A stretch of DNA of 64,000 bases from Thermoclostridium sp. (GTDB lineage Bacteria; Bacillota; Clostridia; DSM-8532), in assembly GCA_017995215.1 (NCBI GenBank), contig JAGOJH010000002.1, positions 1 through 64,000 of the forward strand, in the 5' to 3' direction. A program made the translations under genes and the position numbers. The notes below the pieces were generated by a model, which made no database searches, was not told the origin of the DNA, and saw only the letters and a list, made by a program, of their open reading frames with translations. Shown in pieces: positions 3,214 to 64,000 of this stretch. The number at the start of each line of letters is the position of its first letter. The first letter of the stretch is position 1.

Positions 3214-3293
3214 ATGCTCCTCCTGAGGCTGCGGCCTTTCCGGGAAAATTCCCCCGGCAGGTAACAATAAAAACTTTTGCGGGTATTAATCCT

Positions 3294-3464: not shown

Positions 3465-3530
3465 ATGTAAATACAAGAAAGTAAGTGTGCAAAGAGCTTG
3501 TCAGGAAAGATACAGTGACTGTTTGCATTG

Positions 3531-3562
3531 AAAAAGGAAGCAGGGAACCGTCCCCTGCTTCC
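3531..3562 (-). terminator. rho-independent terminator of lon
   Basis: On the minus strand a stem of ten base pairs (GGAAGCAGGG with its complement, 3536-3562) with a short loop is followed by TTTTT (3531-3535), about 20 nt after the lon stop codon. An A/T-rich run on the other side could let it work weakly in the opposite direction. Confidence 0.8.
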
Positions 3563-3581
3563 TTCTCATTATTTTTTTTGG

Positions 3582-45306: not shown

Positions 45307-46752
45307 TTATTGACGTAAAGTTTGAATCATGTCTTTTAAACTCAAATATTCTTTACGGATCAATATCAAATATAAACTGCACCCGGCAAGATAAACAGCA
45401 CCGCCGGCACAAACCTGAATTAAAAGCAGCAGCGGCGGGTTTATCGGCAGGCCGGAAAGCGCATAGGTTACTGCAAACTCTGCTGAACCACATAACAAAA
45501 ATGGGAGAAGCACCTTCACCAGCTGGCCGAAGCTGTAAATCGATCGGATGCGGTACATTTGATAGGCACACACTGCCAGTTCAACGATAAGTGTTCCAAT
45601 CACAGCCCCGGAGGCCCCATAAACCGGGATAAGGATCAGGTTCAAAACGAATTTGGCTGCAGCTCCCAGGGTTACCGATTGGATGAATACCTTCTCCTTT
45701 TTAAAAGGGATCAGATATTGTGTCTGCACAACACTGTTAATGCTCATCGGAATCATTACGATGGCAAGCTCCATGGTTAAGAGTATTGTCGGCGAGAACC
45801 CCGGTCCCAAAAACCATGGCATAAATACTGTTGAAACACCGGCAATGCCAAAGCAAAGAGCACAGCTGACAAAGCTGTTGAATCGAAGAGAATTCCGCAT
45901 TTTTTGCAGGCCTTCCTCTGCTTGTTCCCGGGCAACGAGACCGGATATTCTAGGAAGCATGACCGCATCCAGGGCAGAAAGAATTCCCTTGGGCAGGTTA
46001 ATCATGTATTCAGCATAGGTATAAAATGCAACAATTGCAGTACTGCCGGCCATTACACCGAGCATTATCCTGTCCATCCAATGGTACATGCTCAACGCCA
46101 GCAAGGGGATAAACAGCTTAATATTCGGCAGGATATGGCCTGCGATATCCTCTCTTCGGAGGGTGACTCTTTTTACCTGATGCAGTAAAAAAGGAATCAG
46201 CTGCAGCTGCTCGAACAAAAAGCAGGCTGACATGATCCCGGTGTAGATCCACAAATCCGATTCCGAGTGCACAAAGATAAATACACCTGCGATGATCAGA
46301 AGCCTTGCGATGACACTGCGTATCGTAACAATTTTAAATTTTTCCATCCCGTAGAAAAACCAACTGACATCAAATAAAGCAGACCCTACATACAGCAGCT
46401 GTAACCAATAGATCATCCTGTTCTCGCGGAACACTGTGAGGATCAGCAAAGCAAATATCAGAATGGATAAAACGGAGGTGATCAGCTGCAGGATGAAAAT
46501 ACCCCAAAACACCCTGCTGCGCTTTTCAAGGTCATCCCTGCAGGAAGCGATGCTCCAATTCCCATAGTTATCAAGACCCAGCTTTGCAAGCATGATAAAA
46601 TAACAGGCCACAGTGCTGGAGAAAGCATACAGCCCCACCTGCTCGGCACCCAATACGCGGGCAACGTAAGGGGTTACAATCAGGGGCAGTATTAAAACGG
46701 ACAAACGGTAGATCACACTATAAGTATAATTTCTCTTCTCTTCTGCATTCAT
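45307..46752 (-). CDS. Wzx-like polysaccharide flippase
   Basis: A 481-residue MOP-superfamily membrane protein with about 14 helices. The start YSVIYRLSVLILPLIVTPYVARVLG is typical of RfbX/Wzx lipid-linked oligosaccharide flippases (LPLIVTPYVARVLGAEQVG). Its presence next to PelG, a flippase-like member of the same superfamily, is unusual. It lies 17 nt upstream of the large membrane protein and 37 nt after the LRR-glycosyltransferase, all in one direction. Confidence 0.88.
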   Translation of the reverse strand: MNAEEKRNYTYSVIYRLSVLILPLIVTPYVARVLGAEQVGLYAFSSTVACYFIMLAKLGLDNYGNWSIASCRDDLEKRSRVFWGIFILQLITSVLSILIFALLILTVFRENRMIYWLQLLYVGSALFDVSWFFYGMEKFKIVTIRSVIARLLIIAGVFIFVHSESDLWIYTGIMSACFLFEQLQLIPFLLHQVKRVTLRREDIAGHILPNIKLFIPLLALSMYHWMDRIMLGVMAGSTAIVAFYTYAEYMINLPKGILSALDAVMLPRISGLVAREQAEEGLQKMRNSLRFNSFVSCALCFGIAGVSTVFMPWFLGPGFSPTILLTMELAIVMIPMSINSVVQTQYLIPFKKEKVFIQSVTLGAAAKFVLNLILIPVYGASGAVIGTLIVELAVCAYQMYRIRSIYSFGQLVKVLLPFLLCGSAEFAVTYALSGLPINPPLLLLIQVCAGGAVYLAGCSLYLILIRKEYLSLKDMIQTLRQ

Positions 46753-48712: not shown

Positions 48713-50136
48713 AGTCCACCCTTTAAACCCTTGCGGGGAAACAGGATTACTTTTCTAACCCCATGATTTCTATTTATTTGCACATGACCCAGGCTATAGT
48801 ATCCCTGATGGTCTGTTGCCGAAAAGGTGTTTGCAATCCCGATCGCCTGTTGTGATCGGGGGTCAAAAATTCCAAAGCACAAAAGATATGGGGTTGTATT
48901 CCATTCTTCCGTGGGCAGTTCGGCTTCAAGCTCAACCGGCACGTCCGGCATCCAGAAGCGTGTATCTGTATTCACACCGTATTCGTATAGCTGCGAATAC
49001 TTTGTATCCCGGACAGCTATTTTCACATCAAATCGATGATAACACGGAGAAAAACCCTTATTGCATAACCGGATACCGATCTTGATATGGTTTTCCCTTG
49101 TAGTGTGGGCAGAAAGCTTCACCTCCTGGATGGTAAAGCGATAACCCAAATGTGCTGTGATGTATTCAAACGCGGTTTTGTTCTGCCACAGGGGATCCGC
49201 AGAACCGGATTTGGTGGCTTTCCATTTGTCCAGCACCTGCTGATCATATTGGTCGTGCAGGTAGGATATTCTCATCTTCCTGAAGCTCTCTATGGCCGGG
49301 GCTGCATCATTATACACGTTATCATTAAAAACTTCACCACCATTTGAAACATATCGGCACAGTTCGTTCTGAAACTCCAGTTCATCCTGGCGCACCCATT
49401 TATCTCCGTACTTTTGTGAGTCGCAGGCATAGATGACACCATAGGTTCCAAAATCAGTTTCGGAGGCCAGCAGCCCATCATTGAACAGGGAGAACCGGGC
49501 TTTTTGACGCTCCAGGTAAGCGGTTTCGGAATTGAGTGGCCGGTCGGTTCTAAAGACCATTCTCCAATAGCTGGGGCACCGGAGTGCAATTTGCGTGTCC
49601 CCCCCACTGCAGTCATACAGCTGTTTTGCCAAACGTGTGATATACCTGTCGCTGAGATAGCGGGAATTGTGCATTTCTCCCCAGCTGCCAATAAAAAGAC
49701 CCTGAAGAATGTAAATGCTCCGGGTATATTCTTTCAGAGCTGCCGACAGCTGCTCCATATGCTGTAAGATATCACCGATATCTTTCGGCTCACTGAAGAT
49801 ACCCTTGCCCTCCCAATCGTAAACAAAGCGTAAAATCAGGTGCCTGCCTTTAGAGGTAAAATACTGCAGGATCTTCCTGATGTTCTGCAATGCTTCTGCC
49901 GACAGGGGCTTATCATTAAAATGCAACAGATTAATCTCTACAAGACAAAGCCGATGTCCTGGGTCGATCGCAATCTCATCAAGTGCGGTTCCCTGATCCT
50001 GGCAGGTGCTTTCCGCATAAAAACGGAAGATGGAATACCATCCGCAATAAGGGTTGTTCAAAGCCTCTGCTTTTTCTGTTCTCGGCAGGGGAATCCATTT
50101 CACTTTATTCGCTTTCCCAATTTGCGGCATAATCAT
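48709..50136 (-). CDS. DUF4874/DUF4832-type glycosidase-like protein
   Basis: A 475-residue protein. The N-terminal 300 residues look like a TIM-barrel sugar-acting domain (NPYCGWYSIFRFYAE; HLILRFVYDWEG; ILQGLFIGSWGEMHNSRY), as in DUF4874. The C-terminal 140 residues form a beta-sandwich as in DUF4832 (ENHIKIGIRLCNKGFSPCYH). The conserved GSWGE with its Glu is the likely active-site strand. No signal peptide is visible, odd for a glycosidase acting on an exported polymer. AAAGGTCA precedes the ATG. Confidence 0.75.
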   Translation of the reverse strand: MIMPQIGKANKVKWIPLPRTEKAEALNNPYCGWYSIFRFYAESTCQDQGTALDEIAIDPGHRLCLVEINLLHFNDKPLSAEALQNIRKILQYFTSKGRHLILRFVYDWEGKGIFSEPKDIGDILQHMEQLSAALKEYTRSIYILQGLFIGSWGEMHNSRYLSDRYITRLAKQLYDCSGGDTQIALRCPSYWRMVFRTDRPLNSETAYLERQKARFSLFNDGLLASETDFGTYGVIYACDSQKYGDKWVRQDELEFQNELCRYVSNGGEVFNDNVYNDAAPAIESFRKMRISYLHDQYDQQVLDKWKATKSGSADPLWQNKTAFEYITAHLGYRFTIQEVKLSAHTTRENHIKIGIRLCNKGFSPCYHRFDVKIAVRDTKYSQLYEYGVNTDTRFWMPDVPVELEAELPTEEWNTTPYLLCFGIFDPRSQQAIGIANTFSATDHQGYYSLGHVQINRNHGVRKVILFPRKGLKGGL

Positions 50137-50144
50137 TGACCTTT

Positions 50145-50900
50145 CTATGAAATATTGCCCTTCTGCAACCCTCTTTTCACCCTGATAACCACATTCATGA
50201 TGCTCAGCGGCATGATCAGCATATACGCAAGCTGCTTCAAAAGCCCCGTATGCATGCTGACTCCAGCTGTTCTTTCATACATTATGGCCGGGGTCTCACG
50301 AATCCGAAACCCCAATAGCAGCATTTGAATGATCATATTGGCATCGGGATAAGTATAATCAAAATTTCCAAACCTGGAATAATACAGAAAGGCTTTACGG
50401 TTTAAAGCCTGCAGGCCTGAGGTCGGATCGGTGATGACCCGGCCGGTGAAGCTCTGAATCAACCACGAAAACCAGGAAAGTGAGCACTTTTTCAGCGCAG
50501 ATATCCGATAAGCCTCGCTTCCCTTTAAGAATCTGGACCCAATGACGATATCAGGCATGTTGCCATCAGAATCGGGGGTTCTGAGGCATTCATACAAGCT
50601 GGCTATGTTGCTGACGCTGTGCTGCCCGTCGGCATCCAGCTGAATAACATACTCATAAAGATGTCTCGAAGCGTATTTGTAACCAACCTGCAAGGCAGAA
50701 CCATAACCCAGGTTGAAAATATGCGTGATCAGCAATACATCATAAGACCGTGCAATCTGTTTGGTACGATCACCGGAAGCATCATTGATGACCAGAATAT
50801 CTGCAAAGCTTCTGATCTCAGGTTTGCACAGTTTATCAAACAAGCTCTCGATATTTTTTTCTTCATTATAGGCAGGAATAATAATCAATACCTTGTTCAT
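50145..50900 (-). CDS. family 2 glycosyltransferase (DPM/polyprenyl-phosphate type)
   Basis: A 251-residue GT-A enzyme: IIIPAYNEEKNI, then INDASGDRT, GYGSALQVGYKYA and the metal motif QLDADGQH. This resembles dolichol/polyprenyl-phosphate sugar transferases that load a sugar onto a lipid carrier. The C-terminus has one hydrophobic stretch (LAYMLIMPLSIMNVVI) that may associate with the membrane. I start at the ATG at 50900 with GGGAG upstream; the longer frame overlaps the previous gene. It could supply donor sugar to the large GT-C-like membrane protein. Confidence 0.9.
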   Translation of the reverse strand: MNKVLIIIPAYNEEKNIESLFDKLCKPEIRSFADILVINDASGDRTKQIARSYDVLLITHIFNLGYGSALQVGYKYASRHLYEYVIQLDADGQHSVSNIASLYECLRTPDSDGNMPDIVIGSRFLKGSEAYRISALKKCSLSWFSWLIQSFTGRVITDPTSGLQALNRKAFLYYSRFGNFDYTYPDANMIIQMLLLGFRIRETPAIMYERTAGVSMHTGLLKQLAYMLIMPLSIMNVVIRVKRGLQKGNIS

Positions 50901-50919
50901 GCTTCTCCCGTCCCCTCTT

Positions 50920-52131
50920 TCAGTCGGCCATCGCCAGTAAATCTTCGAGATCCTCCGGATGATCAATCTTTTTTGTCCGGGCTCGCTGTGCGTAATTTTT
51001 CCGTAATTCCGGATGGTCTATCAAGTGCTCCAATTCACGAACCAAATTGTCGACATTTAACGCAAGCAGGACCCCATCATAACCGGGCTCAATCTGTTCG
51101 GTATTCCCTGTACAATCTGATGCAGCAATCGCTTTCCCTAACACCTGGGCTTCTTCAATGGCAATGCTCTTTCCTTCAAAGCGTGATGCCTGCACATAAA
51201 TATCGGCTTGCTGCATATAGGGATAAGGGTTGTCCTTTTTCCCCATCAGAATAAATGAATCCTCTACTCCATGCTTCCTGATTAACGCTTCCAGATTGGC
51301 TCGTTCCATCCCCTCCCCTATGATATACCACCGTATGCGATAACCATCACGAATCATTCTTGCTAAAGCTTTGATGGCAATATCGTAACCTTTCTGATAA
51401 TGCAAGCGGCCAACGGTCACGAGGCGTATTCCGTCAAAAGCATCCGTGAACCCTTTACCCTCTACAGCCTTCTTTAAAATTTCCTCCCTGTCCAGCAGAT
51501 TCCGAAACAATCTTACCTTATCCCTGTATTGCGGGTAAATGCTGGAAAACTTATCTCCCACCGCATTGGAGACTGCATAGATCCTGTCCATCTGCTCGTA
51601 GCAACCCTGATCCATAAAAGGTGTGTACCCGGCCATCTGATAATCGATATGGATGAAAGCTGCCTTGTGGCGGGCGGTTACTTTTTCTGCCAGAAAATAT
51701 GCAGCCGCTCCTTCAATATAGGACACTGCCAAATCGTAGTTTCCTTTCATGGGTTGTCTTCCAACCGCAAGAAGCCTCCAGAGAAGCTTATCGAGTTGCA
51801 GCTTACGGCCTGTCTTCCTTTGCTGACGGATATTTTCTATCATATGTGGGAGCAGACGAATGCCTGTAAATTGATAAAAAAACGAAGCCGCCACAGTGCC
51901 TGCCTTTCGAAGATATCCGGAAAACGAGAATAGGGAGCTTTTGCTGAAATTCTTGTTCAGCACATGAACGCTCTCTGGTACTCGTTCAAACAGCTCGCCA
52001 CAGGGGAGAATGACATAAAGAAAAAGTTCATATTTCGCCATTGAATCCAACCTTTTCAGCAGGTTAATCAAGGCTGTCTCCGCTCCGGCCTGGCCCATGG
52101 TGTTGATGATAAACAGCAATTTCTTCTTCAT
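50920..52131 (-). CDS. family 4 (GT-B) glycosyltransferase
   Basis: A 403-residue retaining glycosyltransferase. The N-terminal Rossmann half opens KKKLLFIINTMGQAGAETALI; the C-terminal half has VTVGRLHYQKGYDIAIKAL and the EGKSIAIEE motif (E-x7-E) that binds the nucleotide sugar. Cytoplasmic, probably adding a sugar to the repeat unit. The start is the ATG at 52131 with AGAAGG six bases upstream, which lies inside the preceding DUF2304 gene: the two frames overlap by 68 nt, far longer than elsewhere in the operon. Confidence 0.9.
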   Translation of the reverse strand: MKKKLLFIINTMGQAGAETALINLLKRLDSMAKYELFLYVILPCGELFERVPESVHVLNKNFSKSSLFSFSGYLRKAGTVAASFFYQFTGIRLLPHMIENIRQQRKTGRKLQLDKLLWRLLAVGRQPMKGNYDLAVSYIEGAAAYFLAEKVTARHKAAFIHIDYQMAGYTPFMDQGCYEQMDRIYAVSNAVGDKFSSIYPQYRDKVRLFRNLLDREEILKKAVEGKGFTDAFDGIRLVTVGRLHYQKGYDIAIKALARMIRDGYRIRWYIIGEGMERANLEALIRKHGVEDSFILMGKKDNPYPYMQQADIYVQASRFEGKSIAIEEAQVLGKAIAASDCTGNTEQIEPGYDGVLLALNVDNLVRELEHLIDHPELRKNYAQRARTKKIDHPEDLEDLLAMAD

Positions 52132-52561
52132 TCTCAACCTTCTCCATATTCTTCTGTTCTCCCAGGAAAGTCAGACTTTGCACGAGAGACTTCTCCGCCA
52201 TGACGATTTTCTTCAGTTGAACATTCTCATCATTTAGCAGGGAAACCTGCATGGCAAGCTCCTGTACTCTGGCAGCCAGCTCCGCGTTTGTCCTGTAGCA
52301 GTTAAAAATACCATAGAATACAAGCATGATGGAGATCGCAAATATGATCGATGGCGGATACTCGACCGAAAACAAGTCTGAAAGCAGGAATACCAGCCGG
52401 GGAATCAGCCCAAACAGGATGATGATCATTCCCCCTATTATCCAGAACAAGCTTTGCTTTTCCGTCATTTTGCGTACGATATTGGCCTTTCTGGCTATGT
52501 AGATAAGCGTAATGCCTGCCAGGCAAACTAAAATTCTAAGTCCTATCGACATGCAATTCAT
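52064..52561 (-). CDS. DUF2304-like membrane protein
   Basis: A 165-residue protein with three membrane helices (about 5-20, 38-60, 70-87), then a coiled-coil segment (NAELAARVQELAMQVSLLND). The pattern fits DUF2304, small proteins found next to GT2 polyprenyl-phosphate sugar transferases in envelope polysaccharide clusters. The C-terminal 35 residues, encoded in the overlap with the downstream glycosyltransferase, are acidic then His/Gly-rich and look non-conserved. Confidence 0.8.
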   Translation of the reverse strand: MNCMSIGLRILVCLAGITLIYIARKANIVRKMTEKQSLFWIIGGMIIILFGLIPRLVFLLSDLFSVEYPPSIIFAISIMLVFYGIFNCYRTNAELAARVQELAMQVSLLNDENVQLKKIVMAEKSLVQSLTFLGEQKNMEKVENEEEIAVYHQHHGPGRSGDSLD

Positions 52562-52574
52562 CCCTTCCTTCCGC

Positions 52575-54083
52575 TTACTTGATTGTTGTTGCCTGGGTTG
52601 CAGCAGAAGCAGTTTCAGTTAGGAGCTCCGCCCCTAAAGCCCCGGTATATACATTGTAAACATCTGCCTTTGGCATCTGTTCATTTACCTGTTTAATTAA
52701 CGTACCCCTGCAAAAAATAAGGTTATCAATGTTCCTTTCAATCCACCGCAGCCTGAAAAACGAGAAGGTAAAAGCCAGAAAGGCTGCAGCTGTAAACCCT
52801 GTCCCATACCATATGGCACTGAACTGAGATGCCAGCACAGAGCCTGCAAGTGATACACCAGCAAAAATTATACCATTAATCATGGCACCCGTACGGTCAT
52901 CGAAGTAGTAAAGAAATAACAGCTCGGAATACATTAAAAACGATATAAAAAAGCCAACTGCCAGCTGCGGATAAATCTCCATGGTTAATCCTGAGAATCC
53001 CATCGTCGGCAAAATACCAATCGCAATAAAATAAGCAACCACCGATACAAGAAACTGAAGATGTACGAGAGAGAGCAGCTGGGAGGAAAGCCCCTGGAAC
53101 ATCCTCTGTTTTGTTTTCTCAATGGTTTCCAATTTACCGCCAATCACGGCCTCCATATAGCCCCGGTATCTTTCATGGAAATGCATCTCCACTCGGGAGA
53201 TAAAAAACACACTGGCCGAAATATTTGTAAACATGGCAAGGGAAGAAGCCATATCATAGGGTTGGTTGCAGACAAAGGTGCTGCGAACCACCAGGTGCCA
53301 GGGCTGTGCCCAGAACACAAAATTGTGAACAAAAAGCCCGAAGGCATAGAGGAAGTTTGAGGCAATCAGCTTCCAGTATATCCTGTAATAATGAAGCACC
53401 TCTCTGTATTTGCAACTGTTTGCAGGGAAATACCGCAGCACATTGGAAAGCTCCAGCGAAGCTATCAGTAAAAAACCCAGGGATAAGGCCAATAACATGC
53501 TGTAGGTAATGGTAAACCTGAAAATATAGTGAAAAAGCAGTGATAATCCAAGAGTCAGCAACATGGAGCAGATAAAATAGACAGAAATCCTTTTGTATTG
53601 CTTCAGGATGGAATTATACACCATCGTGGCAAAGGTCAGGGTACACCCCAGGTACCCCATAAAGGCGGTAAATATATAATAAACTTCTATTTCTCCCACC
53701 ACCACTGCGTAAATGCAAAAAGGAACTGCCAAAAGAGTGGAAAGGGTCAGATTTGTAATCGTTCCTACATAAATGCAAGGCCGGATGTCCTCGTATCGCC
53801 GCTCGTAAATCCTGTCAGTCTGGTACTTCGATAAAACCGAATTGAAGGGAGCTGCAGTTAGCAGAGAAAAAATAAAGATATACAAAATGCTACAGGAAAA
53901 GGTTTCTCTCTCTATATAGCCAACCGTATCAAACTGCAGCAGCTTGAACATTGCCAGTAAGCATCCGATAACTGCCAGCATTGGTGCGATGGTATAGGTA
54001 AAGCTGAACCCAACACCATAGAGGGACGAGGTTATGGTTCGCCTGCCGAATATTTTATTCAGTTGTACGCCAATGCCCGCCAT
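52575..54083 (-). CDS. pelG: PelG-like exopolysaccharide export protein
   Basis: A 502-residue membrane protein with about 12 helices, opening MAGIGVQLNKIFGRRTITSS as in PelG. In Pel systems PelG is a MOP-superfamily protein that forms the inner-membrane complex with PelD, PelE and PelF and moves the polymer across the membrane. The conserved loop EMHFHERYRGYMEAVIGG is present. It lies 22 nt after pelF. The Gram-positive version needs no outer-membrane export genes, and none occur here. Confidence 0.92.
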   Translation of the reverse strand: MAGIGVQLNKIFGRRTITSSLYGVGFSFTYTIAPMLAVIGCLLAMFKLLQFDTVGYIERETFSCSILYIFIFSLLTAAPFNSVLSKYQTDRIYERRYEDIRPCIYVGTITNLTLSTLLAVPFCIYAVVVGEIEVYYIFTAFMGYLGCTLTFATMVYNSILKQYKRISVYFICSMLLTLGLSLLFHYIFRFTITYSMLLALSLGFLLIASLELSNVLRYFPANSCKYREVLHYYRIYWKLIASNFLYAFGLFVHNFVFWAQPWHLVVRSTFVCNQPYDMASSLAMFTNISASVFFISRVEMHFHERYRGYMEAVIGGKLETIEKTKQRMFQGLSSQLLSLVHLQFLVSVVAYFIAIGILPTMGFSGLTMEIYPQLAVGFFISFLMYSELLFLYYFDDRTGAMINGIIFAGVSLAGSVLASQFSAIWYGTGFTAAAFLAFTFSFFRLRWIERNIDNLIFCRGTLIKQVNEQMPKADVYNVYTGALGAELLTETASAATQATTIK

Positions 54084-54105
54084 TTCATGCCCGCCTTTCT
54101 GTTCG

Positions 54106-55578
54106 CTATAAACAAGCCTTCATCTTTGGAACAAAGGTTTGCTCCGAATAATCCACATGACTCATTTCTGCCAGAGTTTTGTAGATTTTCCGGTAGGTTT
54201 CCTCCATGTATACGCTTTTATATCGGGCCATGAGCCGCCGATATCCGTTTTCACCCATCTGCACGGCCATCTCGGGATGATTCGCCAGCTTCAGGATCGC
54301 ATTTGATATTTCCGAGATATTCATCACCGGTACTATAATCCCTGCTTCTCCGAAGAAATCACCTTCGCCATGGATTAAACCATGACAATTACCCACATTG
54401 GTGGCGATGCAGGGCTTTTTCGCAGCAAAGCCCTCCAGGATTGTCAGGGGCTGACCTTCACTGATGCTGGTCAGTATGGTCATATCCATCCTGCCAATAT
54501 GGTCTGCAGTACGAATTTTTCCGGTAAATACTATGTTTTCTGCTTTTAACGCGCTGACCAGCTCATGACATTCCTGCGCATACTCGGGATTTTCGTCCTC
54601 AGGTCCCATAATCCACAGCTTTAGCCGGGGCTGCTTCTTATGGGCATAGTAAAATGCGTTTATCATGGTTTTTACATCCTTAATCGGTGTGACGCGCAAG
54701 ATTGCACCGACATGAATGTGAGGATCCCCCGGGTCCTTCCCTGGTATATCTGCATATTGCTCCACGTTGATCCCATTGGGGGTAACAATGGCCTTCGAAA
54801 GGGGACATCCCAATTCTATCTGGAGGGACTGTGCTGTCTGAAACAGCGATGTGACTAAATCTGCAAAGTAATATGCCCCTCTGGACATCTTGCGGAACTG
54901 TTCAATCCATATGATTTTGTAAATGCTTTGAACCCATTTCGCCTTAATGATTTCCTCTTCACGTTCCCGGGTGTAAATACCATGTTCACTGATCAACAGC
55001 CTGGCCTCCGGATAAAGGGACAACGCCTTGCTGCCGATAATGCCTGCGTATCCGGTTGATACGCAATGATATACATCTGCCTTCGGTGGAATGCACTTCA
55101 ATGCAAAGAATAATGGCAGATAGATAGAGCGCAGGGTCCACAAAAAATCCGAAAAAGTAATATTCACGTACTTCTTCTTGTAGCAATCCTTTGTAATGGA
55201 TAAAAATTCAGGGCTCATCAGGATATTGTTCACAGAAATATTTTCTCGTCCGAACAAATGAAAAACCGTCACCCAGTCCACTTCTTCACCAATGACCAGG
55301 CTTCTCAGTGCTTCCACTTCGCGTTTTTTCAAATGAATCCGGTTTCGGGGGCCCTTGTTGTTACCAACCCAGTCCACATCCTGTAAATAGACCTCATGCA
55401 CCTGTGTCAGATTGTCTGCCAGCTCATATGTAAACTTACCGCTGGTGCTGCGATCGGATATCACTGTAACCAGAAGGAATTCAATATTGGGGAACAGCCG
55501 GATCATGTTGTGGATCCAACTGGATACACCACCGACAACATAAGGATAACAGCCTTCTGCAATAAAGCATACCTTCAT
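54106..55578 (-). CDS. pelF: PelF-like glycosyltransferase
   Basis: A 490-residue GT4 enzyme, opening MKVCFIAEGCYPYVVGGVSS as in PelF, the cytoplasmic polymerase that uses UDP-N-acetylhexosamine to make the Pel backbone. The donor half has GAILRVTPIKDVKTMI, IMGPEDENPEYAQEC and EGQPLTILE (E-x7-E). Its start overlaps the stop of the DUF2194 gene by 4 nt, so they are coupled. PelF is the only obvious synthase in the pel part of the operon. Confidence 0.94.
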   Translation of the reverse strand: MKVCFIAEGCYPYVVGGVSSWIHNMIRLFPNIEFLLVTVISDRSTSGKFTYELADNLTQVHEVYLQDVDWVGNNKGPRNRIHLKKREVEALRSLVIGEEVDWVTVFHLFGRENISVNNILMSPEFLSITKDCYKKKYVNITFSDFLWTLRSIYLPLFFALKCIPPKADVYHCVSTGYAGIIGSKALSLYPEARLLISEHGIYTREREEEIIKAKWVQSIYKIIWIEQFRKMSRGAYYFADLVTSLFQTAQSLQIELGCPLSKAIVTPNGINVEQYADIPGKDPGDPHIHVGAILRVTPIKDVKTMINAFYYAHKKQPRLKLWIMGPEDENPEYAQECHELVSALKAENIVFTGKIRTADHIGRMDMTILTSISEGQPLTILEGFAAKKPCIATNVGNCHGLIHGEGDFFGEAGIIVPVMNISEISNAILKLANHPEMAVQMGENGYRRLMARYKSVYMEETYRKIYKTLAEMSHVDYSEQTFVPKMKACL

Positions 55579-57479
55579 GGCTCTTCCTCCTCTGGCAAAC
55601 TAAATTCAGGGTTACTCGGCAGTATGGTGTTATTCTTCGGTTTGTGCAGCAGGTTATCCTCTTTCAGCCCAATTTTGACGTTGGAATCAATAGCCTTTAT
55701 CAAATAAGTGTTCGCTGAAATTCTTGAAGCTTCTCCATGGGTCACGAAATCAATGCTTTTGTCATAACAGTTCAGGATGAAATAAGCCTCTTCATCAAAA
55801 TTTCCAATACGAATATCAATTCCCGTCGGATGGTATTCATAGGTAAAATCCAGAGCAAGAAAACGTCTGACACGCTTTTCAAGCTCAGCCATGGAAACCA
55901 TGTCAAACCCGGAATACTCCGTGTAATAGGTTTTCCCCCTGGACCAGCTCAAACTCAGGTTATGCCATTCCTCCGTGCTATCCTGTGGAAAGATTACCTG
56001 TTGTACGTCCACCTTCATATTGCTCATTCCCAATGAGTTTTGAACAGCGAGCATCCGCAGATCATCCAGGGTTTCATGCTGAAACCCATCCAGATTGAAT
56101 TTCACAGACAACACCTCCTCCGTTAAAAAGCCAAGGATTTGATCCCCCTCTTCATAATCCGACATGACCAGGCTAATCCGGTCTAATAGCCTATTATCCA
56201 ATTTCCCCCTGATTTCGTTATTGCTGAAATCACCCGTATATAATGCCGTAAATGGATAATTGGGAAGGTGTTCTCCAAAAAAAAGTGCGTTTTGATCGAT
56301 AATCTCATTCAAATCCACAGCAGACACCTGGTTCAGCGAAAGGCCGACTTCACCGGGCAGTTTATGGATTTCCCTCAGATAAAAGTCAAGATAATCCTGA
56401 CGGGGTCCGATCTCATCCCTGTAATCCAGCTGTGAAGCAGCAAAAAAATTAAAGGAAGTGCCATAATTTCTCAAAACCTGAACCATGTTCGGCCACAATA
56501 TATCTCTGGCCAGGGCTTCCGAATTTCTGCTGTATATCTGTGTTATTGCGGCTTCGTTTTCGTTTGATAAGTACGGATAGCCGGTAATCGAAATGGTTTG
56601 TGCATTGACAATCGGGTACAGATAGCACTCCGATTCCTGCACCATAAAACCCGTCAGTACGCCGAGCATAGGCATTCCCTGAAAAATATCACTGTTCACT
56701 GCAAATATGAAGGAACGATTGGTTTTGGTTCTCCATAAAAGGGGTGGTAAATCCTTATTCTCTATCCCAAGCGCGGTTTGGTTATCAAAAAGCCCAACCG
56801 CATACACCTCGTAACCCGCTGATAATTTGTAATAGGGTATGTGAACGGAGGTATCATCTTTGCTTCCGTAAAAGTCGCCTTCCCGGTATATTCTACCCTC
56901 TCCTGTCATAAAACCGGGGAATATTCTGAAGCCATCTGCAGAAGCCTTCGGCTCAATCAGCTCTGCTATACCAAAAAAATCAGCCAGTGCTTTACTGGAG
57001 TTGAGTTCCTGATAATCCGGCAGCTTCGTAAATAACATCGTTTTTTCGCCCTCTGATAGAGTCAACAGAGTATCGCTGTCCTTTGCCGTAAGTTGAATAT
57101 TTCCGAAAAGAACAATGCGGCAGTCTGTAATATCTTTTTCGTCAGGTATTTCAGTATAGATTCTGAATAAATACTTATGGTAAACGCACCATTCCATCAA
57201 CAGTCTTGTCGCTGCTTCTTCCCTATCGGAGGCTATTATCGCCACAGCCGTTTTATTTTGAAAAATTCCGTCCTCGTCACCTACTCTCACCGTATCTTCA
57301 AAAGCCATGTTCAGGCAGTCTGCTGTGAGGGTGTCTTTTTGCCGTATATGAATTTTTTCCGTGTTCATATCTTTGATCATAGCCTTGTCCGTATTCGAAA
57401 AGATCCCTACGAACATGAACATTACAAATACAGTTATAAACAACATGATAATTGTCGAATAGATTTGTCTGGATAACAT
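55575..57479 (-). CDS. DUF2194-like PelA-deacetylase counterpart
   Basis: A 634-residue protein with one N-terminal membrane helix (about 8-28) and a large outside domain, at the position of the deacetylase gene in Gram-positive pel operons. It fits DUF2194, a polysaccharide-deacetylase-related family. I cannot find the His-x(3-4)-His metal pair of active CE4 deacetylases: the segment that should carry it reads LPGEVGLSLNQVSAVDLNEI, with no His. It may therefore be a non-catalytic homologue or use other ligands. The C-terminus is acidic. Confidence 0.75.
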   Translation of the reverse strand: MLSRQIYSTIIMLFITVFVMFMFVGIFSNTDKAMIKDMNTEKIHIRQKDTLTADCLNMAFEDTVRVGDEDGIFQNKTAVAIIASDREEAATRLLMEWCVYHKYLFRIYTEIPDEKDITDCRIVLFGNIQLTAKDSDTLLTLSEGEKTMLFTKLPDYQELNSSKALADFFGIAELIEPKASADGFRIFPGFMTGEGRIYREGDFYGSKDDTSVHIPYYKLSAGYEVYAVGLFDNQTALGIENKDLPPLLWRTKTNRSFIFAVNSDIFQGMPMLGVLTGFMVQESECYLYPIVNAQTISITGYPYLSNENEAAITQIYSRNSEALARDILWPNMVQVLRNYGTSFNFFAASQLDYRDEIGPRQDYLDFYLREIHKLPGEVGLSLNQVSAVDLNEIIDQNALFFGEHLPNYPFTALYTGDFSNNEIRGKLDNRLLDRISLVMSDYEEGDQILGFLTEEVLSVKFNLDGFQHETLDDLRMLAVQNSLGMSNMKVDVQQVIFPQDSTEEWHNLSLSWSRGKTYYTEYSGFDMVSMAELEKRVRRFLALDFTYEYHPTGIDIRIGNFDEEAYFILNCYDKSIDFVTHGEASRISANTYLIKAIDSNVKIGLKEDNLLHKPKNNTILPSNPEFSLPEEEEP

Positions 57480-57509
57480 ATTATACTCTCATCCTCAATA
57501 AAATTCACT

Positions 57510-58427
57510 TTATCTCTGCTCAATGTACATTTGCATTAGTTCTGCCACCTCATTATCAGCGGTGATCTGTGAGCTCACCAGCTCATTCAGGCATTTATAA
57601 AATGCACTGTAATGATGCTGTTCAAAAAACAAATGCAATTTAGCCTTGTAAGTATCGAGCATATCCGGGCGATACTGACCGGCCCTTGAGCTCCATTTTT
57701 CTGCCATACTGAAATTTCTGATGGAAATAAACATATCGGTCATCCGCAGGTAATGTGTTGCAGTCATATACCACAAATTGTAGGTAAAAAGGTTTTCAGC
57801 CACATCATCCAGGGTGAATATATAAGCTTCCTGCTCGACACCGGATAGGATTTTCAGGCTGAGAAATTCATAGATATAGTCAAAGGTCAACAGATTCATT
57901 TCTACATCTTCAGGGATTTTCTGCATTTTTTCAATCATGTCTTGAGCCGCAGAACGCAGTTCGGATAAAACATCCATGACCATTGTGGCAACATAATGAG
58001 AGGTCTCGGTATCCTGGCTGTTCATGGCAGCAGCAATGCTGGAGATCTTATTCTTTACGTTGCTGAGCATCGTATTTAATAAGAGTCTTCTGAGGCTTGC
58101 TGTATCGGATATTGCTATTGCATCATGGATGGGCACGTAATTCATTTCCGCACTGATATCAGGGGGTAAAATTAATTTTTCTCTCTCCTGGCTGAAGCTA
58201 ACATCACTCATATCCACATTCTGATTACGGATGAAATAGTTGATCATGAAGCTTAGCAGCAGATATACAGCGCCAATTAAGGGTACGATAAAGATAAACC
58301 ATGACAGCAATACTGCAGTGCTGCGTTGTTCCGCTTTTTGAAAGAAGGATGCAGCAAATATCAGTATGGCCAAAAGGCTATTCACTGTTAATATAATAAT
58401 AACCGGATAAAGGCCTGCCGTATTCAT
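57510..58427 (-). CDS. pelE: PelE-like membrane protein
   Basis: A 305-residue protein with two membrane helices (about 8-27 and 37-60), followed by a soluble helical region with TPR-like character near the C-terminus (WSSRAGQYRPDMLDTYKAKL). In Pel systems PelE is the inner-membrane TPR protein that bridges PelD, PelF and PelG. I assign it mainly from topology and its place between the pelD-like and deacetylase-like genes. Confidence 0.75.
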   Translation of the reverse strand: MNTAGLYPVIIILTVNSLLAILIFAASFFQKAEQRSTAVLLSWFIFIVPLIGAVYLLLSFMINYFIRNQNVDMSDVSFSQEREKLILPPDISAEMNYVPIHDAIAISDTASLRRLLLNTMLSNVKNKISSIAAAMNSQDTETSHYVATMVMDVLSELRSAAQDMIEKMQKIPEDVEMNLLTFDYIYEFLSLKILSGVEQEAYIFTLDDVAENLFTYNLWYMTATHYLRMTDMFISIRNFSMAEKWSSRAGQYRPDMLDTYKAKLHLFFEQHHYSAFYKCLNELVSSQITADNEVAELMQMYIEQR

Positions 58428-58478
58428 CGTTACTCCTTAAAGCTGGTTTCAATCATTTGAACTAAGCTTGTTTTGTTT

Positions 58479-60644
58479 TCAAAGTAATTGGGTCGTAATA
58501 TTCTCTCTCTCCAGACGCTCCTTTACATGGATGGACTCGTTTTTATTGGTGTTGGTTAATAAAATTGCCAGATTGCCGTCAGGCCTTTCACCAATATAAT
58601 CGGTTTCCCGGAGTAATGGGTGTATCTTGTCGTTAACTTCCTTTAGCGACAGGTTTCCTCTTTCAATAAATAAAATACAGGACTCTGCATAGCCATTTTC
58701 TTCTGCACGTTTATAGATACTCATCATCTCTTCAAAAGCTGTATCCTGCAAAATCGAAGTGTCGGGAATGTACCGGCGGTAGGCCAAAGCATCCAGGTAG
58801 TTGGCATCCCGGACAAAAACAGAATACACCAATGCCCCCACAACGGTGAGCAGATTTGCATAATACAAAGTCATTTTTTCATACGGAAGGTTCCAGAGAA
58901 AAATGACGATTCTCATGTTACCCTCGTCGCTGAAAAGAGAACTGGCCATCATGGGCAGAGAGCTATCCAGCGTGCGGTTTGTGTATACCTGTCCTGACCT
59001 TAATATCTCAAAAATCACCCCATATTCATCTATAAGAAGGGTTTTACCCAAAGACGCAGCCTTACTGTCTGACGAGGATACCAAACGACAGTACTTTTTA
59101 TTGGATATCAGGTAAATAGAGACCCCCTCTGTCTCCATGATCTCTTTAATTGTATCGAGAGCAGCAAACAAAATTTCTCCCTTTTCTGACTTTTGCAGCT
59201 TTGAGGTTATGCCATAAATGCGGCCGATACTTTCTCTGCTGCTGATGAGCTTATCTGAGTAATAATCCTTTATTTTAGCGTTGCTGGAGTTTATCACTGA
59301 AATATCTTTCAGCTGATCTTTCAGAAAATTAACTTCTTCATCCATTTCATCCTTCGTTTCCTTGAATTTGTCCTTTAAATGGCCAACGGATAATCCAACA
59401 AGAAAGATTTGCACAATCTGAAGGTATGTATCGGCCTCTATCAGGAAGGAAACATTTGTTGAATGAAGCACCTGGCTTAAGGTTAAGCCAATGGCGCTGA
59501 GCAGGGAAGTAAATATTGCCATCTGTCTGCCATACATGAGGGCAAAGAGCAATACATATAACAAATAAAAATGAATGCTGGCAAAAAACCGGCTTTCAAT
59601 GGTGCCATGACTGAACAGAAAAACCAGTATAAACATTACAATACCTTCCACAAAAGGCAGAGCTTTATGCAGCAGGCGGATAAACGAAGACTTATCTCCG
59701 TTTGTTTCTATGGATTCGCCATCTTGCAGAAAACGCTTTTTGTGGTGATTAATGTAAGTGATTATTGAGGGGATCATTTCCTCCCATTTACAATTCAAGC
59801 TCAGCGGAAATTCGCTGCGAAATCTCTCATTGGACAATATGAATCTTTGTTTTAATCCCACGGTTTGATCGACAACCTCAACATCCTGTATACAATGGGT
59901 TTTAATCACCTGTGCGACCTTATCTTCTGTGACCTCTTCCATGGAAGAAATATGATACAAATGATGTTTTCTCTCCGGTGCCTGTATCAATAAAAAAAGT
60001 GCTTCCACCGCATCTTTTACACACAGGCCGGAAAATACCCTTTTGGCATTGATGCGTAAGCGTACGTTCACGATCGCTTCAACACACATTCTGGAGAAAA
60101 TGTCGCAGCATCCGCTCCTGTCTTTCGGAATTCCATACATTTGGGATAACCTTACAACCGTAACCTCCATCTGTGCGGATTGTCCATAGTGAAGCGCAAG
60201 ATCTTCGCCCTGAGCAATAGCCATACCCTTATAGCTGTTGGGAGAAACGGGCATATTTTCTTTAATATCAACAATATATTCATCTTCGAAAACTATCTCT
60301 GAAGAAATATAAACAAAATGCCGGACACCTTGAAGTGAGACAGCGATGAGGATATTGCTGAGATCTGCTGTATAGCTTAAAGCAGTGTCATTGTTTTCAC
60401 TGTTCCAATGGTAACAGGAATCATACGCACCGGAAAAAAGAACTACATCCGGTCGACAGCTCGCAACGATTTCCTTGATGCTGTCACTTTGATAGTCAAA
60501 AACATATTGTTCAAACACGTGAAGCGGCTTCAGAAGCTTCTTGTTGCTTATCAGTGTATAAATATGCCACTTTTCAGTGTGAAGCTTTTCAATTAAATGA
60601 TTTGTTAAAGGATTATAATCTCCTATGATTAAAATATTTGGCAT
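58479..60644 (-). CDS. pelD: PelD-like cyclic-di-GMP receptor with degenerate SDR domain
   Basis: A 721-residue protein. Residues 1-300 form an SDR/epimerase-like fold that has lost its motifs: the Gly-rich loop reads IIGDYNPLTNHL, and the YxxxK site reads PNSYKGMAIA with no Lys. Four membrane helices follow (about 325-425), a coiled coil (about 430-470), a GAF domain (about 485-615), and a degenerate GGDEF domain whose motif is PDGNL (688-692). The inhibitory-site RETD (679-682) is intact at the right spacing, so it should bind cyclic-di-GMP without making it, as PelD does. It is the first gene of the polysaccharide operon, with an attenuator-like terminator in its leader. Confidence 0.88.
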   Translation of the reverse strand: MPNILIIGDYNPLTNHLIEKLHTEKWHIYTLISNKKLLKPLHVFEQYVFDYQSDSIKEIVASCRPDVVLFSGAYDSCYHWNSENNDTALSYTADLSNILIAVSLQGVRHFVYISSEIVFEDEYIVDIKENMPVSPNSYKGMAIAQGEDLALHYGQSAQMEVTVVRLSQMYGIPKDRSGCCDIFSRMCVEAIVNVRLRINAKRVFSGLCVKDAVEALFLLIQAPERKHHLYHISSMEEVTEDKVAQVIKTHCIQDVEVVDQTVGLKQRFILSNERFRSEFPLSLNCKWEEMIPSIITYINHHKKRFLQDGESIETNGDKSSFIRLLHKALPFVEGIVMFILVFLFSHGTIESRFFASIHFYLLYVLLFALMYGRQMAIFTSLLSAIGLTLSQVLHSTNVSFLIEADTYLQIVQIFLVGLSVGHLKDKFKETKDEMDEEVNFLKDQLKDISVINSSNAKIKDYYSDKLISSRESIGRIYGITSKLQKSEKGEILFAALDTIKEIMETEGVSIYLISNKKYCRLVSSSDSKAASLGKTLLIDEYGVIFEILRSGQVYTNRTLDSSLPMMASSLFSDEGNMRIVIFLWNLPYEKMTLYYANLLTVVGALVYSVFVRDANYLDALAYRRYIPDTSILQDTAFEEMMSIYKRAEENGYAESCILFIERGNLSLKEVNDKIHPLLRETDYIGERPDGNLAILLTNTNKNESIHVKERLERENITTQLL

Positions 60645-60710
60645 AAAGATTTATTTTCCCCTTGGTAACATTTCTCTGCTGCGCTTTTTTCCCTGCAACC
60701 CAGGCGCAAC

Positions 60711-60757
60711 AGAAAAAAGTGCTCCGAAACCTGAAAAATTAATGCATTTCGGCACTT
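60711..60757 (-). terminator. intrinsic terminator in the pel leader
   Basis: Leftward: AAGTGC-CGAAA (60757-60747), an 18-nt loop, TTTCG-GA-GCACTT (60729-60717), then TTTTTTCT. The stem has 11 pairs with a 2-nt bulge and a proper T-run. It lies 67 nt upstream of the pelD start and downstream of the only promoter candidate, so full-length transcription would require read-through. Confidence 0.7.
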
Positions 60758-60843
60758 CAGCACATTCACATCCCCTGGAAATGGGAAAACGAAATTAGCC
60801 GAAAGAATATATTGACCTTATTTCAAGAATCCCCCACAATAAT

Positions 60844-60872
60844 AGTTTAGCATAAAAAAATTCCATTGAAAA
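60844..60872 (-). promoter_or_regulatory. candidate promoter of the pel operon
   Basis: Leftward TTTTCA (60867-60872), 17 nt and TAAACT (60844-60849) with TGC directly before it as an extended -10. It is about 200 nt before pelD. The match is modest. The rest of the gap to 61181 has only the DivIVA-like gene promoter. Confidence 0.4.
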
Positions 60873-61041
60873 GAGGGGGTTTTTGTCAAACTTTCTGGTT
60901 CTGAGCATAGTCAAATTAGCATTATTGCCTTATTACCAATGATTTTCATTGATGATGGTCATATAGTAATTTCTCATCCTCACCTGAGCTGAATCAGGAA
61001 TAAACCGGGAACCAAACCTTTGTGCGGCATGCGATAGCGCG

Positions 61042-61070
61042 TTGACATCCAAAATAGTATAAGATATGAT
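61042..61070 (+). promoter_or_regulatory. SigA promoter of the DivIVA-like gene
   Basis: A perfect TTGACA (61042-61047), 17 nt and TATGAT (61065-61070), about 110 nt before the start codon. Confidence 0.7.
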
Positions 61071-61181
61071 AAAGGAAATGTTGTTCATTTTGATTGGTTA
61101 AATTCATCCTCCAGCAGTCGATTTAAATGGGTTCTCATCTGCATCGGGTTTGATTTAATGCTATACAGAGGAAGTTTATAA

Positions 61182-61508
61182 ATGAAACGAAGTTTATTGG
61201 GCTATAAGGTTTCAGAAGTGAATGCGGTCCTGGATGCTCTCCGGGAAGAGAACGAAGCATTAAATGCTGCTATAATCACGCTCAAAACTCAAGTTAAAAA
61301 TAATGCGATCGAAAAAAGTGCGAAGAGCATTTTATTGGAAGAAGAACTTGAGCAATGTAAAAAGAAGTTAATCGTTCTGAATCAAAAAATTGATTTGCTT
61401 GAACTGCAAAATGAAGAATACCTCATAAAGATTGAAGCTTTGACCAATGAAAACAAAAGCTTAATGAAGCAGTTAGCCGACCCTCATTTATCTAAATTTG
61501 ATGACTGA
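61182..61508 (+). CDS. small DivIVA-like coiled-coil protein
   Basis: A 108-residue protein. The N-terminus SLLGYKVSEVNAVLDALREE resembles the DivIVA/GpsB membrane-binding motif (GYxxxEVxxFLD), and the rest is an almost unbroken coiled coil to residue 95. DivIVA-like proteins bind curved membrane at division sites or poles and recruit partners. This one is short and could locate the neighbouring envelope machinery; that is inference. AGAGGAAG precedes the ATG. It stands alone, divergent from the pel operon. Confidence 0.8.
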   Translation: MKRSLLGYKVSEVNAVLDALREENEALNAAIITLKTQVKNNAIEKSAKSILLEEELEQCKKKLIVLNQKIDLLELQNEEYLIKIEALTNENKSLMKQLADPHLSKFDD

Positions 61509-61715
61509 GAATGTTTTCCGACACTGGATAGTGATTCGTCAATTTTTGAATCAATCAAGAGCTTTATCGTAAGCGAGGTAAGGTAATAAAGCTTCAGGGA
61601 CAGTCCGGCAGACAGCCCCCATAGCAATAGCTTCCAGTGTAGGCTCCCTCTGAAATTCAGGTATTTTCCATGAAGAATCTCCTTTTCATCTCGCTACAAT
61701 GATGATACCCGCTAG

Positions 61716-62936
61716 TTACTTTTCTATCTCAAACAGCTTCATCGCTTTTACGTTTCTGCTTCTTTTCTTTGCCTTTAAAAAAATAGCTCTTGCAGATACC
61801 TTCCTGATTTTGCGGTTATTGTTGAGAAAAATCATCAGAGTCAACAGCCATAGGACAGGCCAGAGGAAAAAGCATCTTCCTGCTTTCGGATAATTAAGAT
61901 GCATTTGGTGATGAAATTCTCTGACATAACCCAGGATTGAGGTGTCTGTGACTAATACCATTCTATCCTTGGCTGACCTCCCGAACTCTTCTGCCTCTAT
62001 TATTTCTTTAATAAAATCCTCAGTCACTTCCGATGATAGGGAATCAGGCTGATAAAAATCGATTTTTGTTTTATCAAGGCCCAGATAGGTGGCACAGACT
62101 GCCGAAACTCTGTCAGAAAACCCGGTCAGTCCACACTCCTTCACCAGCTTACTATAGATTTGACGCTCTTCTTCGTCCATCTCCCGATTCCATAATACGA
62201 CCCAGTCGCAAAGGAGCTTTAATCCAAAGCCTGCCCTGAGAAAATGCTGAAGCATATGGACCAGCAGGTAGAACGCATGAAACGCTTCTCCCGGAATCGG
62301 AAGCGTGCTGCCTATAATTTCTTTATATTGCTTACTCCTTTGATAATCGATGACAAGCGTTTCCAAATAGTCATTAACCTGTTGATTGTCAAAGGGCTCT
62401 GCCAGCATGGTGTGTACTTCAATTACAACGCCCTCCCTGGAAGCGAATTCAACATGATGGTTGGAGTGCTGCTTATCCTTCATCTTATAAGCATTAGCCT
62501 TTAATATCTCAAATGCTTTATCCTTATCTTTCATGTTTCCAAGCAGTATGTCCACATCTCCTGATTTACGAAGCTCGGGAACCGGATACAAGGATGCCGT
62601 TCCCACTCCCTTCAGTAAAATAACCGGAATGCCCTCTTTCTCCAGCAAATGAACAATATCATTCGAGATATAGAGCAAACGATAGTTTTGCAGCACTATA
62701 CTGCGGCTTACTTTTTTCACCTTATCAAACAGATCAGTGGGAAGACCTTCCGTTTCTGAAAGCACATCATATAATAAAGACAGTACTCCATGCTTCTCGG
62801 CCAGGTTTATCATCAAGCTCCATTGTTTTTCCGTTAACCCGTTATCATCTAAGGGTTCTCCCTTCGGTGAGCCGGTAAGGGCCTGCTTTAAGAATGACAA
62901 CAAATACAATTCCTCTATCAGCAAACCGCTTTTCAT
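61716..62936 (-). CDS. NTP_transf_5-like nucleotidyltransferase
   Basis: A 406-residue protein of the uncharacterised nucleotidyltransferase group. The N-terminal half has the motif VILLKGVGTASLYPVPELR followed by SGDVDILL, the GS/GxxxR-DxD metal site of the polymerase-beta-like fold. The C-terminal half is helical and ends with one hydrophobic stretch (FFLWPVLWLLTLMIFLN) and a basic tail, so it is probably membrane-associated. The family is often encoded with PqqD-like proteins and S24/S26 peptidases, as here, sometimes near polysaccharide or peptide-modification genes. It overlaps the pqqD-like gene by 4 nt. The substrate is unknown. Confidence 0.85.
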   Translation of the reverse strand: MKSGLLIEELYLLSFLKQALTGSPKGEPLDDNGLTEKQWSLMINLAEKHGVLSLLYDVLSETEGLPTDLFDKVKKVSRSIVLQNYRLLYISNDIVHLLEKEGIPVILLKGVGTASLYPVPELRKSGDVDILLGNMKDKDKAFEILKANAYKMKDKQHSNHHVEFASREGVVIEVHTMLAEPFDNQQVNDYLETLVIDYQRSKQYKEIIGSTLPIPGEAFHAFYLLVHMLQHFLRAGFGLKLLCDWVVLWNREMDEEERQIYSKLVKECGLTGFSDRVSAVCATYLGLDKTKIDFYQPDSLSSEVTEDFIKEIIEAEEFGRSAKDRMVLVTDTSILGYVREFHHQMHLNYPKAGRCFFLWPVLWLLTLMIFLNNNRKIRKVSARAIFLKAKKRSRNVKAMKLFEIEK

Positions 62937-63223
62937 TTCAATATTCCTTTCTCTTTCAGGTATGCTTCCATTCCATTCTCTATTAACTGATCAAGGAATT
63001 CGTTCACATCCGCCAATGCTTCTTCCGGACCAATGCCATACTTTCTTTGAAGGAGTACCGATAGCTCCTTTACACTTGATCCCTTTTCAATCCTTTCCCA
63101 TAGAATAGCTCCGCATTCATTGGTTGCAACGGGTCTGATATATTCCTTCCGCTGATCGGCTTTAATAATCCAATACATGCCTGCAGCATGTCTGATGAGA
63201 TAGTTCAGTTTATTTGCCATCAT
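62933..63223 (-). CDS. PqqD-family protein
   Basis: A 96-residue small winged-helix-like protein. The pattern (DQRKEYIRPVATNECGAILW, then VKELSVLLQRKYGI, DVNEFLDQLIENG) matches PqqD, a peptide chaperone that presents a precursor to a modifying enzyme. No radical-SAM partner is in the window. Overlapping stop/start (ATGA) with both neighbours shows a three-gene operon: S26 peptidase, PqqD, nucleotidyltransferase. Confidence 0.88.
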   Translation of the reverse strand: MMANKLNYLIRHAAGMYWIIKADQRKEYIRPVATNECGAILWERIEKGSSVKELSVLLQRKYGIGPEEALADVNEFLDQLIENGMEAYLKEKGILK

Positions 63224-63687
63224 TTCTCTCCATCCATGTCATTCTTCCCGATATGAAACAGGCGCAGAAGTCTTCCCCCCAGCTTACAAATTCGAAAGCG
63301 CAAGGTTGGGGGTATAAGCCAGGCTATGCGATACAGGCGATAGAACGGATTTTTTACGGATATTTTCCTGCCCTTGCGAATAAAGGCCACCAGAAGCCCC
63401 TTAATCTGTTCTTTTCTGATGGGGCCTTCAATGGCCTCCTGGTTGTCTCCAACAAGAAAGACTCCTTCCGGCTTTACCTTCCAAATTCGATGCAGAACAA
63501 GAATACCTTCATCTCTCCGAAATAAGACCACATCTCCACGCTTTAAGGTCTCCGGCTCCACCCTTTTGATGATCACCGAATCGCGTTCCGGAATTAGCAT
63601 CGGGTACATGCTGTACCCTTTCGGCTGAATCTGAATGACCTCTCCCTGTTCCAGCAATTTTAATATGTCAGTTTTTCTCTCATACAT
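63220..63687 (-). CDS. S24/S26-family signal-peptidase-like protein
   Basis: A 155-residue protein with the serine nucleophile in PKGYSMYPML and the second box LKRGDVVLFRRDEG ... LVLHRI. A His in LHRI stands where Lys acts in the usual bacterial enzyme, as in archaeal/ER-type (SipW-like) signal peptidases. GDNQEAIEGP is box E. There is no N-terminal membrane anchor; a weak hydrophobic part lies near the C-terminus (FYRLYRIAWLIPPTL). I start at the ATG at 63687 with AGGAA upstream rather than 8 codons earlier, where no ribosome site exists. Confidence 0.85.
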   Translation of the reverse strand: MYERKTDILKLLEQGEVIQIQPKGYSMYPMLIPERDSVIIKRVEPETLKRGDVVLFRRDEGILVLHRIWKVKPEGVFLVGDNQEAIEGPIRKEQIKGLLVAFIRKGRKISVKNPFYRLYRIAWLIPPTLRFRICKLGGRLLRLFHIGKNDMDGEK

Positions 63688-63817
63688 AAATTTTCCTGTT
63701 CTGTCAGACATCTATTGAATGATTAAAGCGACAAATACAGCTTTTCTTTAACTCGTTTATGGCACACAAGTTCCCAGAGCGAAGAATTGTGTCCTTCTTC
63801 GACACTATTTTTAACTT

Positions 63818-63850
63818 ATCGTAGCATTTTTCTTGTGTAAATGCTATAAT
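63818..63850. promoter_or_regulatory. divergent extended -10 promoters with shared inverted repeat
   Basis: TAGCATTT (63822-63829), 9 nt, AAATGCTA (63839-63846) is a perfect 8-bp inverted repeat. Its right arm runs into ATGCTATAAT (63841-63850), an extended -10 pointing right to the partial PqqD gene. Its left arm, read on the other strand, is ATGCTACGAT (63827-63818), pointing left to the S26/PqqD/NTase operon. One bound protein could control both directions. Confidence 0.55.
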
Positions 63851-63917
63851 AATCAAAAACAATTCATACATCCATGCTATAACGGCACCAAACAATTCAT
63901 GGATTAGGAAGATAATC

Positions 63918-64000
63918 ATGAAAACAGCAGAGGGCTTTTCCTTATATCAGATACAGGATTCCTATTATTTACTGCCATACGGTCAAAACATTACCCTTTT
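63918..64000 (+). CDS. second PqqD-like protein (3' end outside window)
   Basis: Only 27 codons are visible: an ATG with TTAGGAAGA upstream, then MKTAEGFSLYQIQDSYYLLP and YGQNITLF. The opening, a GF.L..I.. strand followed by a Y.L-P-G strand turn, resembles the first two strands of PqqD-like proteins. It diverges from the operon to its left, which already encodes one PqqD. Confidence 0.6.
   Translation, partial: MKTAEGFSLYQIQDSYYLLPYGQNITL

Follow-up and report, generated by a model that had tools for sequence, protein, structure and literature searches.

Why should a cyclic-di-GMP (c-di-GMP) receptor carry a domain that resembles an enzyme yet is missing the residues for catalysis? The question is raised by PelD, the regulator in a Gram-positive gene set for the biofilm sugar Pel. 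In a Thermoclostridium sp. its gene (58479-60644, minus strand) lies in a 64,000-nucleotide stretch of contig JAGOJH010000002.1, referred to here as the window. An earlier note on this DNA had taken the protein to be purely a receptor, extended at its N-terminus by a vestigial SDR-like domain that might sense a nucleotide-sugar or NAD state. Here we document the domain make-up of this PelD, the residues it has lost and kept, and its conservation and mode of selection, and we infer for it c-di-GMP binding, complex formation and a role for the SDR-like domain.

pelD is a single open frame encoding 721 amino acids from an ATG start, which is preceded by a putative ribosome site (judged by eye from the sequence). 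That the frame encodes PelD, as the earlier note proposed, is borne out by its surroundings, because a run of pel genes lies downstream: Pfam and NCBIfam profile matches place pelD first in a co-directional pelD-E-A-F-G operon on the minus strand. The second gene (57510-58427) has no informative Pfam match and is called pelE-like from its operon position and from homologues that sit next to PelD in most loci. It is followed by a pelA-like deacetylase gene (55575-57479; DUF2194, its role assigned after PMC7112168), by the glycosyltransferase gene pelF (54106-55578; NF038011, 346 bits against a cut-off of 100) and by the exporter gene pelG (52575-54083; PF16933, 2.2e-128). After pelG come genes with DUF2304, GT4, GT2 and DUF4832 matches (Pfam/NCBIfam), and pelF followed by homologues of the GT4, GT2 and DUF4832 genes recurs in 54-55 of 62 loci. 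A search of positions 48000-64000 for riboswitches or other Rfam elements near the operon returned none at E values up to 1.

Several neighbouring genes deserve mention in their own right. The best NCBIfam match of the GT2 gene in the pel run (50145-50966, minus strand) is a polyprenyl-phospho-GalNAc synthase, at 82 bits and far below the cut-off. A single protein encoded at 46790-48712 (minus strand) joins a glycosyltransferase family 2 domain to BspA-type leucine-rich repeats and adjoins a flippase-like gene (45307-46752). The 782-residue protein encoded at 42941-45289 (minus strand) lacks a Pfam match and is homologous to a 903-residue protein of another locus (L075:6835-9546). Of 64 related loci, 63 have a homologue of the latter, and in 31 its gene separates pelD from pelA.

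The C-terminal half of PelD has the features of a receptor. A helical transmembrane part (residues 318-440; 59325-59693, minus strand, as for all features of pelD) gives a weak DUF4118 match (E 2.4e-4, below the cut-off) and forms helices in the structural model. It is followed by a GAF-like domain (residues 491-625; 58770-59174), recognized from its fold alone through matches to PelD and GAF domains, and by a truncated GGDEF-like domain (residues 634-721; 58482-58745) that is weakly recognized by sequence (Pfam E 0.07, below the cut-off) and otherwise by model and Foldseek. When residues 440-721 were modelled separately (pLDDT 80.5), P. aeruginosa PelD supplied the top two Foldseek matches, the first at E 3.8e-8 and the second, its complex with c-di-GMP, at 9.4e-8. 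Superposition over both domains gave a low TM-score (~0.39) and a high rmsd (~16), which may reflect a differing angle between the two domains. Comparing the PelD C-terminus with the PDB by sequence produced no credible match; an exotoxin chain that appeared at E 0.066 was taken as chance.

As the earlier note had read the motifs of the GGDEF-like domain, the position of the lost GG(D/E)EF is occupied by PDGNL (residues 688-692; 58569-58583), and RETD (residues 679-682; 58599-58610), the c-di-GMP I-site motif, sits five residues ahead of it, which is the canonical I-site spacing. A third c-di-GMP residue, R710 (58515-58517), corresponds by position to R395 of B. cereus and R402 of P. aeruginosa PelD. 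We aligned 88 PelD C-termini, of which 86 have letters at the I-site columns and two are gapped there. All 86 readable homologues have both R679 and D682, so that chance occurrence of the I-site can be ruled out, and the R710 column holds Arg in 82 and Lys in four. GG(D/E)EF occurs in none of the 88 rows. The genome has 21 GGDEF and eight EAL matches, from which it is very likely that c-di-GMP is made in the cell; one open frame with both GGDEF and EAL domains enters from the start of the window (4-1218, plus strand), distant from the pel operon. With GG(D/E)EF gone, the three predicted c-di-GMP residues kept and these enzymes encoded in the genome, the alignments support the earlier view of the window PelD as a c-di-GMP receptor rather than a diguanylate cyclase.

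We now turn to the N-terminal domain (residues 1-300; 59745-60644), which adopts a non-catalytic extended-SDR (NDP-sugar epimerase) fold according to Pfam, Foldseek and structure alignment. Its matches to RmlD_sub_bind (3.4e-14) and Epimerase (6.2e-14) both pass the Pfam cut-offs. An AlphaFold2 model built from 50 sequences has block pLDDT values of 78-96 over these residues; its best Foldseek match is the UDP-glucose 4-epimerase 4zrm (2.1e-17), and VIA-align superposes it on NDP-sugar epimerases and dehydratases over ~290 residues with Z about 30 and rmsd 2.4-4.0. Both the GxxGxxG loop and the Tyr-x3-Lys pair of catalytic UDP-sugar 4-epimerases are absent, with the fold itself still present. 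Aligned to the GGYGFIG of five intact PelD-fused SDRs described below, the former loop reads GDYNPLT (residues 8-14; 60603-60623): glycines 2 and 3 are lost and glycine 1 is kept. Alignment to intact relatives and to solved SDRs puts K139 (60228-60230) in place of the catalytic Tyr and I143 (60216-60218) in place of the catalytic Lys; Y138 adjoins the Tyr position but is shifted by one residue. Where the five intact domains have an acidic Asp behind strand 2, the window protein has I32. The observation of the earlier note that the loop and the Lys are lost holds, but its list was incomplete in that the Tyr is also gone.

Could the domain nonetheless be active, with unusual residues doing the work? 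The active site retains its Ser side, S114 and S115, but nothing is left of the Tyr, the Lys, two of the loop glycines or the acidic residue that follows strand 2, and we give catalysis a close to negligible chance. The same losses bear on the idea that the domain senses NAD: because two loop glycines, the post-strand-2 acidic residue, the Tyr and the Lys have gone, NAD binding in the usual way appears unlikely.

Is the degenerate domain peculiar to this genome? A PelF-based scan found at least 80 loci, mostly of Lachnospiraceae, which constitute a sample of the nearest relatives; 20 further loci were added, and 83 SDR-bearing PelD rows were compared. Tyr-x3-Lys is absent from 78 of these 83 SDR-like domains. 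In the 64 rows of the clade set, the Tyr position is Lys (32) or Arg (27), the Lys position is Leu (30), Ile (18) or Val (11; 59 of 64 together), the third loop glycine is Met, Ile or Thr in 47, and 57 have Thr in place of the acidic residue that follows strand 2. A tree places the window PelD as sister to a Herbinix PelD (99/91), with an end branch that is long (0.72 versus 0.09 for the sister) in a tree with many long branches. Judged by these comparisons, the window PelD is ordinary for Lachnospiraceae and its degenerate SDR not peculiar to this genome. Viral contigs, when searched, held no PelD relative.

The remaining five of the 83 domains (L078, L080, L085, L086 and L089) have Tyr-x3-Lys together with an intact loop (GGYGFIGS); four of the genomes they come from belong to the window's class (G131, G046, G391 and G079) and one to its phylum (G503). 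On our reading the pseudo-SDR derives from an SDR of the NDP-sugar 4-epimerase type, of which active-looking fused versions persist in relatives. Among the 78 is L093, in which the glycine loop is kept and the active site lost. This locus (1936-5130) may represent an intermediate, and immediately upstream of its PelD there is a separate gene for an intact SDR.

We also considered whether genomes with an intact SDR on PelD use it in place of a GalE that they lack. A GalE search over 21 genomes (the 21st, G348, has a PelD without SDR) found a match over the cut-off in three of five intact-SDR genomes versus 13 of 15 degenerate-SDR genomes, which does not support this explanation. G046 and G079, home to L080 and L086, have no GalE over the cut-off, and in both the PelD-fused SDR is the best GalE-like match of the genome. 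The G079 PelD is split into two frames (L086:2432-4655), one with the SDR-GAF part and one with the remainder, owing to either a frame break or an assembly error. The window genome itself encodes a canonical GalE elsewhere (479 bits, cut-off 262), so that the epimerase step needs no PelD.

If the domain no longer catalyses, it might simply be a functionless remnant in decay. Loss of catalytic and cofactor residues is what one would expect under this scenario, and one Streptococcus thermophilus strain that lacks the domain still makes a pel-dependent biofilm (PMC7112168). Yet Nei-Gojobori dN/dS for the SDR part, finite for 17 of 19 pairs, ranges from 0.046 to 0.171 in 16 of these 17 usable pairs, one of which includes an HD-GYP part, and these are rough values in that many dS are near saturation, both window pairs among them; the receptor part behaves similarly. 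The exception, at 0.348, is the nearly identical pair L116-L117. Moreover, seven residues are invariant across 50 sequences (G72, D75, N97, S114, E147, D211 and Y230), and of the 25 SDR columns with 90% conservation or more among 49 relatives, the window sequence keeps 24. On the dN/dS values and these 24 columns we rejected a vestigial SDR, to which we assign a very small probability. The word vestigial in the earlier note is accordingly not supported: purifying selection is comparable to that on the receptor half, and clade-specific conserved residues are kept. The sequences favour reuse of a cleft or surface rather than decay.

One possibility is that the remodelled cleft has a nucleotide ligand, either a sugar nucleotide from the pool of Pel precursors (UDP-GalNAc or UDP-GlcNAc) or a different one, and that PelD would thereby integrate c-di-GMP with precursor supply. 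We compared conservation in columns that we presume to line the GalE cleft, using a list chosen after the alignment had been seen, which tempers all comparisons built on it: in pseudo-SDRs these columns score 0.606 versus 0.456 for the rest, a difference like that in 26 true GalEs (0.803 versus 0.669). Residues specific to the clade at strand ends (T32, G33, R/K35, the invariant G72 and D75, W80, K/R139 and R165) point the same way. Against this, structural constraints often suffice to conserve strand ends, the clade-specific residues are weakly enriched in the cleft (7 of 34, P 0.04), and the glycine loop is lost. Within the cleft of pseudo-SDRs this loop shows the lowest conservation (z 0.30, versus 0.79 in GalE), while strands 4 and 5 end in residues conserved to the same degree as in the enzymes. 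Overall, we regard ligand sensing as a tentative and rather unlikely reading. Were it true, a pseudo-enzyme within PelD would detect what its ancestor used as substrate or released as product.

Alternatively, the pseudo-SDR may bind no small ligand and be a surface for protein interaction, its partner being, for example, the free GalE of the cell, or else PelE and PelF. According to work cited in PMC13254593, PelD, PelE, PelF and PelG of P. aeruginosa interact with one another; a canonical GalE is available in trans, and in L093 a free intact SDR adjoins a PelD whose own SDR has lost its active site. However, free SDR genes occur near pelD in just two of 89 loci, and docking leaves the conservation of the cleft unexplained. 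We consider docking a serious candidate whose chances fall a little short of even. What can be said of the pseudo-SDR is that it has lost its catalytic residues and normal NAD loop and has kept the fold and a remodelled, conserved cleft.

A more unusual arrangement than that of the window PelD came to light among its relatives. Three PelDs, L079:9603-12461 (minus strand), L083:2260-5049 (plus strand) and L084:3955-6735 (minus strand), carry an HD-GYP-like domain N-terminal to the pseudo-SDR in one open frame. HDxGK and HHE are kept in all three (HD_5 5e-23 to 5e-28), so that each joins a receptor for c-di-GMP to a putative phosphodiesterase for the same molecule. The fusion is found in three of six genomes of one genus and, in a search of 16 genomes of its family and order, in the same three and none beyond that genus; among the literature matches listed, no title concerned such a fusion. 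One might then imagine that in Lachnospiraceae the dead PelD epimerase is a nucleotide-sugar sensor, that Pel is gated by c-di-GMP and precursor together, and that this one side genus adds an HD-GYP phosphodiesterase domain of its own, a combined scenario that strikes us as improbable.

In our judgement the window protein is most probably a PelD of the type already published, combining a degenerate SDR with a c-di-GMP-binding GGDEF remnant. In the mechanism we envisage, c-di-GMP made by other enzymes of the cell would bind at R679, D682 and R710, and PelD so loaded would switch on PelF within a membrane PelDEFG complex; activation through c-di-GMP at the I-site has been published for two PelDs. 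On the cytosolic side, the pseudo-SDR would most likely have a regulatory or docking role and not a catalytic one. G72, D75, K139 and R165, along with the natural contrasts L080 and L093, provide concrete handles on what a degenerate SDR does for PelD.

How does this compare with known systems? Whitfield et al. 2020 (PMC7112168) describe, in streptococci, clostridia and actinobacteria, extended PelDs that have an N-terminal epimerase domain whose residues are altered, consider this degenerate domain likely inactive, and propose a non-epimerase function. A second source (PMC12345266) distinguishes four PelD groups and calls the role of the degenerate SDR unknown. The titles, abstract openings and passages that our searches covered held nothing on the PelD SDR domain beyond these two papers. 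The architecture is thus already in print (PMC7112168) and not a discovery; our small additions are the evidence for selection, the remodelled cleft, the intact SDRs in the window's class and phylum, and the HD-GYP PelDs, along with two corrections, namely that the catalytic Tyr is also lost and that the domain is under purifying selection rather than in decay. The window PelD shares with the extended PelDs its domain order, altered cofactor and catalytic residues and pel operon, but the streptococcal proteins are without the GGDEF part, whereas the window keeps that part and its I-site, and the window's downstream genes differ from the published CotH set. In Brevibacillus PelD the N-terminal SDR is apparently functional, with the cofactor and catalytic residues kept that the window has lost (PMC7112168); for intact residues the passages of that paper name Brevibacillus alone, and L078, L080, L085, L086 and L089 are intact too. 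Extended SDR epimerases (4zrm, 3m2p and E. coli GalE) have the fold in common with the window protein, which lacks the catalytic Tyr/Lys and retains little of the NAD loop. For the receptor half, the closest parallels are two PelDs without an SDR. That of Bacillus cereus ATCC 10987 resembles the window protein in its degenerate GGDEF, its RxxD and its third Arg, binds c-di-GMP with a KD of 103 nM, and loses binding and biofilm upon loss of R363, D366 or R395, the positional counterparts of R679, D682 and R710 (PMC7112168). That of P. aeruginosa (4dn0, 4etz; 455 amino acids, going by the construct name) pairs a GAF with a GGDEF-like domain, the latter longer than in the window; loss of R367, D370 or R402, which by position are again these three residues of the window PelD, abolishes both c-di-GMP binding and pellicle formation (PMC2170427).
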